Positions 22,276-23,915 of a stretch of 56,848 nt of DNA are shown in pieces. The DNA comes from Cyanobium sp. (GTDB lineage Bacteria; Cyanobacteriota; Cyanobacteriia; PCC-6307; Cyanobiaceae), in assembly GCA_014191755.1 (NCBI GenBank), contig BJHE01000010.1, positions 12,058 through 68,905 of the forward strand, given 5' to 3'. Below the pieces are notes generated by a model. That model did not search any database. It had not been told where the DNA came from and was given only the letters and a program-made list of their open reading frames with translations. A program made the translations under genes and the position numbers. How positions within the stretch are numbered: position 1 is the stretch's first letter; every line of letters begins with the position of its first letter.

Positions 22276-23556
22276 ATGGCCGAACTGCCCTTTGCGTTCA
22301 GCCCCAGCACACCACCGGCGGCGCCGCCCCCGCCCCAGCCCACTCCCACGCCAGCAGCCTCCCCCCCCCTGGAGGAGGGAAGCCAGCTGGGAACCAGAGC
22401 CGCCATCCCGGCTGCGCCACCACCTCCGGCTGCCCCCGCCCCTCCGACCACCCCGGCCCGGGTGAACCCGGAACCTCCCGGCACCCCGGCCGAACCGCCG
22501 GCCAACCTTGAGGCGATCGTGCAGATCGCCTTCATCAACAACTATTCCGATATCCATCTGGGCGTTGGCGAGGTGCCCCGCTTCCGCAGCCTTGGGGACA
22601 TCGTGGCCACCCCTTGGCCCGTCACCAACGCCGATACATTTCGCGACTGGCTGCGAGAAGTGCTCAACCCCGGCCAGTTGGACAGCTTCAAGCGGCAGAA
22701 GGAATTCGATGGATCACACTCCTTCTCCTTCGTGAGGGTAAGGATCAATCTGCTCGAAACGGTGCAGGGTCCGGCCATGGTGCTGCGCCTCATCCCCAAG
22801 GAGATACCCAGCCTTTCAAACCTGGGAATGCCGAGCGTGATCAAGGACCTCGCTGCCAAGCCGAAAGGAATGATCCTGATCACCGGAGCTACGGGCTCGG
22901 GCATCACTACCACCCTGGCGGCGCTGATTGATCATATCAATACCACCATGAAGAAGCATGTGCTCACCATCGAAGATCCGGTGGAGTTCGTGCACAGCAG
23001 CAAGCAGTCTCTCATCCGTCAGCGGGAGGTTGGCAGCCACACCAAGCTGTTTCAGAATGCCCTGAGATCAGCCCTGCGCGAAGATCCGGATGTGATCCTG
23101 ATCGGTGAGATCCGCGACCAGGAAACCTTCAGTACTGCTATCAAGGCCGCCCAGACCGGTCATCTCGTGCTCGGCACCCTCCACGCCACTTCCGCCGTGC
23201 GCACGCTGGAATTGGTGCTGAGGATGTATTCCCCCCACGAGCAGGAGGGTATGCGGCGGGCCATTGCCGAAACGCTCCTGGGGGTGATCTCCCAGGGTCT
23301 GATCAAGACCACCGACGAAAAAAGAACCGCCTTCCACGATATCTTGATCAACACTGATACCTGCCGCGACTATATTATCAGCGGCAAACTCGATGAGATT
23401 GATGCGATCATGAACCGCAGCGCCTTCGACGGCATGCAGACCGCCAATCAGTCCTTGGCCCGCTTGGTGCAGGAGGGAAGAGCCACCGCCGAAGAGGTGA
23501 TCTCCAACAGCAACCGGCCGGGCGAACTGGAGCAGACCCTTCGCGGCAGTACCTGA
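22276..23556 (+). CDS. PilT-like type IV pilus ATPase with altered Walker A
   Basis: A GspE/PilT secretion-ATPase family protein of 426 aa. Residues 1-75 are a Pro/Ala-rich extension. A PilT N-terminal domain follows (NNYSDIHLGVGEVPRFRSLG). The Asp box (REDPDVILIGEIRDQET, 268-284), the TIEDPVEFVH stretch (231-240) and the His box (TGHLVLGTLHATSA) are intact. The P-loop is GATGSGITTT at 203-212: the invariant lysine is Ile210, codon ATC at 22903-22905. ATP binding or hydrolysis should be impaired. It may be a regulatory or hetero-oligomer subunit of the retraction motor. No pilus genes adjoin it. Confidence 0.9.
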   Translation: MAELPFAFSPSTPPAAPPPPQPTPTPAASPPLEEGSQLGTRAAIPAAPPPPAAPAPPTTPARVNPEPPGTPAEPPANLEAIVQIAFINNYSDIHLGVGEVPRFRSLGDIVATPWPVTNADTFRDWLREVLNPGQLDSFKRQKEFDGSHSFSFVRVRINLLETVQGPAMVLRLIPKEIPSLSNLGMPSVIKDLAAKPKGMILITGATGSGITTTLAALIDHINTTMKKHVLTIEDPVEFVHSSKQSLIRQREVGSHTKLFQNALRSALREDPDVILIGEIRDQETFSTAIKAAQTGHLVLGTLHATSAVRTLELVLRMYSPHEQEGMRRAIAETLLGVISQGLIKTTDEKRTAFHDILINTDTCRDYIISGKLDEIDAIMNRSAFDGMQTANQSLARLVQEGRATAEEVISNSNRPGELEQTLRGST

Positions 23557-23601: not shown

Positions 23602-23862
23602 TCAGTTGGTGTGTCCTGTGAGTCTTGCCACCAGCAATACGGTGAGGCCCACCGAGAGTCCAAGCATCGCAAGTCTGCCGTTCCAGATCTCGGCTTGGGG
23701 AGTGAAGCCCCGCCGCCAAGAATTGAGCTCCTCCTGAGAGACTGGCTCAGGTCCGCCGGATCTCACCACGGCCGGCGGTGCAGCACCGACCTGCATCCCG
23801 GCGGAAGGGATCGGAGCTGATTCAGGGGTGGAGTCGTACGGCACGGGATTCGCCGGGGCCAT
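23602..23862 (-). CDS. High-light-inducible (Hli/Scp) chlorophyll-binding protein
   Basis: A single-helix relative of plant light-harvesting proteins that binds chlorophyll and carotenoid and protects photosystem assembly. From the ATG at 23862 it is 86 aa. The first 50 residues are a Pro/Ser-rich soluble tail. The conserved block is GFTPQAEIWNGRLAMLGL, with Glu and Asn-Gly-Arg as chlorophyll ligands, and the helix continues SVGLTVLLVARL. It lies 53 bp downstream of tsaD, perhaps co-transcribed. Upstream open sequence to 24060 is antisense overlap and rejected. Confidence 0.9.
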   Translation of the reverse strand: MAPANPVPYDSTPESAPIPSAGMQVGAAPPAVVRSGGPEPVSQEELNSWRRGFTPQAEIWNGRLAMLGLSVGLTVLLVARLTGHTN

Positions 23863-23915
23863 GGGCACTGACGGCCTGGAGCCGTGCCTGCAGGGATCAA
23901 TACACCCTAGGGCTA

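Follow-up and report, generated by a model that had tools for sequence, protein, structure and literature searches.

Does a PilT-like protein that has lost the lysine of its P-loop remain a motor, persist in some other capacity, or simply decay? This question is raised by a pilT2-type gene (22276-23556, plus strand) in the window, by which we mean the whole 56,848-nucleotide stretch of the Cyanobium sp. contig BJHE01000010.1 that was analysed. Its open reading frame translates to 426 amino acids with no internal stop, and the product matches Pfam T2SSE as well as the full-length PilT/PilU family model TIGR01420 (scoring 408 bits, above the curated cut-off of 319.1, and spanning residues 78-415). 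Here, the Walker A motif or P-loop (GATGSGITT, residues 204-212; 22885-22911, plus strand) does not follow the GX4GK[ST] pattern, as it reads GATGSGIT with isoleucine for lysine. Codon 210, which aligns with Lys136 of Pseudomonas aeruginosa PilT, is ATC (22903-22905, plus strand) where AAG or AAA would be expected, just as the earlier note had reported. Since the Walker A lysine is absent, we assign the protein to the PilT/PilU family by descent and fold, and make a correspondingly lower claim for its being an ATPase.

Identity as PilT2 and genomic setting

Three members of the PilT superfamily are encoded in this genome (3.5 Mb, 92% complete), and these are the window protein, a canonical PilT (PilT1, 43% identity) on contig C4, and the PilB adjoining that PilT. 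The PilT1 gene, whose product has the P-loop GPTGSGKTT, lies between those for PilB and a T2SSF/PilC protein, and thus on a different contig from pilT2. A secretin, a sub-threshold match to PilM, and three pilin-like signals are also found, while the Pfam PilN model gave zero matches in the genome. Judged from this gene content, the genome probably encodes a type IV pilus machine. Between the PilM-like frame and the secretin there are two open reading frames with no Pfam match (L110:4436-6057), which are probably divergent picocyanobacterial versions of PilN and PilO.

The PilT2 of cyanobacteria is a second PilT defined by a proline-rich N-terminus (PMC12288463). As for the window protein, it is a second PilT, it is encoded apart from pilBTC, and its N-terminal extension (residues 1-75; 22276-22500, plus strand) has the corresponding composition, with proline content ahead of the core at 36%, compared with a median of about 30% in the orthologues and 0% in five PilT1 rows. 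Moreover, the gene order wecB-pilT2-hli-tsaD-psaF is kept in relatives that have the lysine. By these sequence-based measures, the window protein is an orthologue of cyanobacterial PilT2, a name that we set by tree, proline-rich N-terminus, and gene position, with the Synechocystis PilT2 being compared by description only. Both the proline-rich extension of 75 residues and the lack of adjacent pilus genes, which had been remarked upon beforehand, are therefore real but ordinary, as the former is a common PilT2 trait and the latter a position shared with lysine-bearing relatives. Immediately downstream of pilT2 on the minus strand (23602-23895) is a short gene that resembles one for a high-light-inducible protein, and this adjacency is kept in the genus members that were compared.

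Origin of Ile210 and further changes at the active site

The nearest relative, a Lac Pavin MAG (G010; record JAPLIE010000006.1) with an 88% identical protein, has the same ATC codon within the P-loop GATSSGITT, and so the substitution is indeed shared by a close relative, a point which the earlier note had left for checking. Outside this pair, lysine occupies the position in 50 of 50 aligned orthologues, and every one of the 27 further genus members that were codon-typed encodes it by AAG or AAA. The two genomes are sisters with 100% support in the PilT2 tree and likewise in the PilT1 tree, and the next to branch in both is G026, whose PilT2 has the lysine and is about 70% identical. The G026 gene (L039) is itself unusual in that, with its lysine kept, the P-loop reads GSTGTGKST and is accompanied by E251Q and A362S, and hence some loosening may predate the loss of the lysine.

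When 400 genomes of the family were scanned with a DNA pattern specific for the isoleucine P-loop, matches were confined to the two sister genomes. A broader scan of 390 genomes of the class with non-lysine P-loop patterns returned, apart from the window, eight matches that all lay outside P-loop ATPases, and hence no sign of convergent loss in these genomes, although the patterns require the flanking P-loop residues and would miss lysine losses combined with other changes in the loop. Because ATC is shared by the sister species and lysine is found in all others examined, the codon comparison indicates that the replacement is one two-nucleotide event in the common ancestor of a two-species clade of freshwater picocyanobacteria. 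Relatives with the lysine had been named in advance as grounds for giving up the original observation; these turn out to be every one of the 50 more distant orthologues, and not the sister, a distribution that places the change in time and leaves the observation standing.

The remaining ATP-site motifs were earlier described as intact, and this is only partly so. The Asp box (EDPVEF, residues 233-238; 22972-22989, plus strand) is unaltered, as is the Walker B region (REDPDVILIGEIRD, residues 269-282; 23080-23121, plus strand) with its GEIRD stretch. In the His box (TGHLVLGTLHATSA, residues 294-307; 23155-23196, plus strand), both histidines are kept within TGHLVLGTLH, but the adjacent Thr304 has become alanine. 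Moreover, codon 313 (23212-23214, plus strand) is TTG for leucine, and both Thr304 and an arginine at position 313 are present in all orthologues examined outside the sister pair. By sequence alignment with P. aeruginosa PilT, Ile210 corresponds to Lys136, Glu278 to Glu204, His303 to His229, and residue 313 to Arg239, with the latter situated at the closed interface among residues most of which abolish twitching if mutated (PMC6858323). In fact, along the stem leading to the two species, sites invariant in the 27 other genus members underwent L185M, R195K, V202I, K210I, S211T, R227K, T304A, V311L, and R313L, of which K210I falls in Walker A and T304A in the His box. After the split, the Lac Pavin copy added G207S in the P-loop and G277D just before the Walker B glutamate, while the window copy acquired G348E and other changes, with Glu278, the Asp box, and both His-box histidines retained. 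The Walker B stretch in the Lac Pavin copy (L038) consequently reads IDEIRD rather than IGEIRD, an AAA-like 'DE', alongside the serine in place of P-loop Gly207.

As stated in PMC6762196, ATP binding requires the Walker A lysine, and PilT proteins of other species become inactive in vitro once it is substituted. Because Lys210, Thr304, and Arg313 are all lost, we consider ATP hydrolysis by the window PilT2 to be unlikely. The fold, on the other hand, looks intact in an AlphaFold2 prediction of the core made with 20 homologues (mean pLDDT of 78.5, pTM of 0.73), which is PilT-like and says nothing on activity. Its best matches in the PDB are Thermus thermophilus PilT2 (5fl3; TM of 0.85 with 39% identity) followed by Geobacter metallireducens PilT4, and with core residues 158-183 at a pLDDT below 50, we draw no detailed site geometry from the model.

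Selection since the two species diverged

As Ile210 is common to both species, their divergence postdates the loss of the lysine and can be used to gauge the selection acting on the altered gene. Over a core of 347 residues, the two copies differ by 37 replaced codons and 49 synonymous codon differences with no stops, whereas simulating neutral change at the synonymous rate seen between them gave on average 140.5 replacements (118 at the least) and 4.8 stops, and 0.6% of the runs lacked a stop. Replacements are thus about 4-fold below the neutral level, which rules out a neutrally evolving pseudogene. In fact, neither an interrupted frame nor a dN/dS near 1 is found, as the frame is open in both species and dN/dS is 0.207. 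Two further genus members do have apparent frameshifts in pilT2, G024 (L043) near residue 337 and G007 (L045) near residue 125, and these are either assembly errors or independent losses.

Nevertheless, the constraint is looser than in other close pilT2 pairs, among which this dN/dS is the highest (controls of 0.03-0.14, maximum of 0.139), the controls being restricted to closer pairs with NG86 dS looking saturated in the more distant GC-rich ones. For PilT1 of the same two genomes, dN/dS is 0.110, which is likewise the highest among the pairs compared, and the control pairs span the PilT2/PilT1 replacement ratio of 2.4 found here. Some of the looseness therefore belongs to the lineage as a whole. 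The neighbouring genes of this pair, taken in their apparent coding frames, mostly give a dN/dS of about 0.08-0.35, with one fast putative coding frame at 0.50 and apparent antisense shadow frames reaching 1.8 and 5.8. Moreover, 10 of the 37 post-split replacements, several of them outside the ATP site, fall at positions invariant in the 27 other genomes, which is the highest among 61 pairs, albeit in a comparison biased by the close relatives that most control pairs have in the set (for the two control pairs that are isolated, the counts are 0/22 and 2/14). Taken as a codon-level estimate, purifying selection on pilT2 persists but is relaxed. The earlier view of an inactive subunit as opposed to simple decay thus gains from the shared two-nucleotide change and the low dN/dS, and loses from the greater looseness and the number of invariant residues that are changing.

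Retention, decay, and comparison with known pilus motors

With catalytic residues lost and the gene under purifying selection, yet of a relaxed kind, the protein is a candidate pseudoenzyme. We lean slightly toward the explanation that PilT2 lost its ATPase in the common ancestor and has since been retained as a non-catalytic PilT-fold subunit or partner of the PilT1 machine. In such a scheme, K210I, T304A, and R313L would have ended ATP hydrolysis in that ancestor, and the lysine-less protein would still assemble into a ring or join PilT1 or the PilC platform in a mixed complex. It might then modulate pilus behaviour by docking, coupling, or holding a state, and PilT1 would supply all of the energy, with canonical PilT1, PilB, and PilC being present in the genome. 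Only tentatively would we go on to call it a naturally arisen PilT-family pseudo-ATPase whose dedicated task, performed without catalysis, is to regulate or couple the type IV pilus retraction machine, the structural role having been split from the motor role. Counting against retention is that, in model cyanobacteria, mutants in PilT2 are still piliated and transformable (PMC12288463), and hence its selective value may be small.

The main and serious rival, a possible account that would look similar at the present stage, is slow decay, wherein the lineage ceased to need PilT2, catalysis was lost, and the gene is now on its way to becoming a pseudogene, with only residual constraint against, for example, toxic misfolding or poisoning of PilT1 rings. 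The top-ranking dN/dS, the changes at invariant sites that are both scattered and within the ATP site, the two further glycines lost in the Lac Pavin copy, and the interrupted frames in G024 and G007 (whether assembly error or real decay) are all in keeping with this. Against it stand the lack of stops and frameshifts in two species, the shortfall of replacements relative to neutrality, and a PilT1 that is similarly loose with a replacement ratio typical of the controls. Considerably less probable is that the window PilT2 still hydrolyses or binds ATP, with other residues or a neighbouring subunit giving the phosphate contact. While Glu278, the Asp box, and the two His-box histidines would suit such a role, the P-loop has no obvious new lysine, Thr304 and Arg313 are gone as well, two ATP-site glycines have been lost in the sister copy, and substitution of the equivalent lysine kills PilT activity in vitro elsewhere, as stated in PMC6762196. 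Accordingly, the suggestion in the earlier note that nucleotide may be bound in another way is unsupported. Finally, although both assemblies are fragmented (220 and about 210 contigs), a sequencing, assembly, or binning error is scarcely credible and, for sequencing, ruled out by an identical ATC codon, two nucleotides from lysine, in two distinct species whose copies differ at synonymous sites nearby and whose flanking genes are conserved.

To return to retention as a non-catalytic subunit, if two species do keep a PilT2 incapable of using ATP, then at least part of the PilT2 job would be independent of ATP hydrolysis, whereas if the gene is decaying instead, PilT2 would be dispensable in their lineage. 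This matters mainly because the role of PilT2, which is widespread in cyanobacteria with a mutant phenotype described as unexplained in a 2025 review (PMC12288463), is in need of an explanation, and the lineage suggests a testable non-catalytic one. PilT2 and pseudoenzymes are each already known, and our literature search, limited in scope, found no papers on degenerate Walker A PilT proteins or pseudo-ATPase pilus motors, nor a fixed lysine-less PilT paralogue in a natural lineage.

When set beside cyanobacterial PilT2 (PMC12288463), the window protein is orthologous by tree and has the same gene position in the genus, proline-rich N-terminus, and separation from pilBTC, but differs in being without the Walker A lysine, His-box threonine, and closed-interface arginine that other orthologues examined have kept. 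Thermus thermophilus PilT2 (5fl3), though the closest match in fold, has a canonical P-loop lysine. PilU, the PilT-dependent accessory retraction ATPase, is similarly an accessory PilT paralogue alongside a canonical PilT, and the same review suggests that PilT2 may act like it (PMC12288463), but PilU depends for its work on Walker A and Walker B motifs of its own, whereas the window protein has no Walker A lysine. A parallel can also be drawn with the laboratory K136A mutants of Vibrio cholerae PilT, in which the same residue is lost and an intact paralogous motor is present in the cell. Here, Walker A-dead PilT keeps its function with PilU (PMC6821130, PMC6762196), as K136A supports retraction so long as its paralogue PilU is active, and binding to PilU is kept by PilT Walker A mutants (PMC6821130). 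In contrast, the loss in the window protein is natural and fixed, involves isoleucine plus further site changes, and affects the accessory paralogue rather than the main motor. By analogy, then, the window PilT2 would be a mirror of the V. cholerae case, where PilT is dead and PilU drives retraction, and, if retained as we propose, it would match in nature the laboratory result in which retraction by a partner was supported by a dead PilT.
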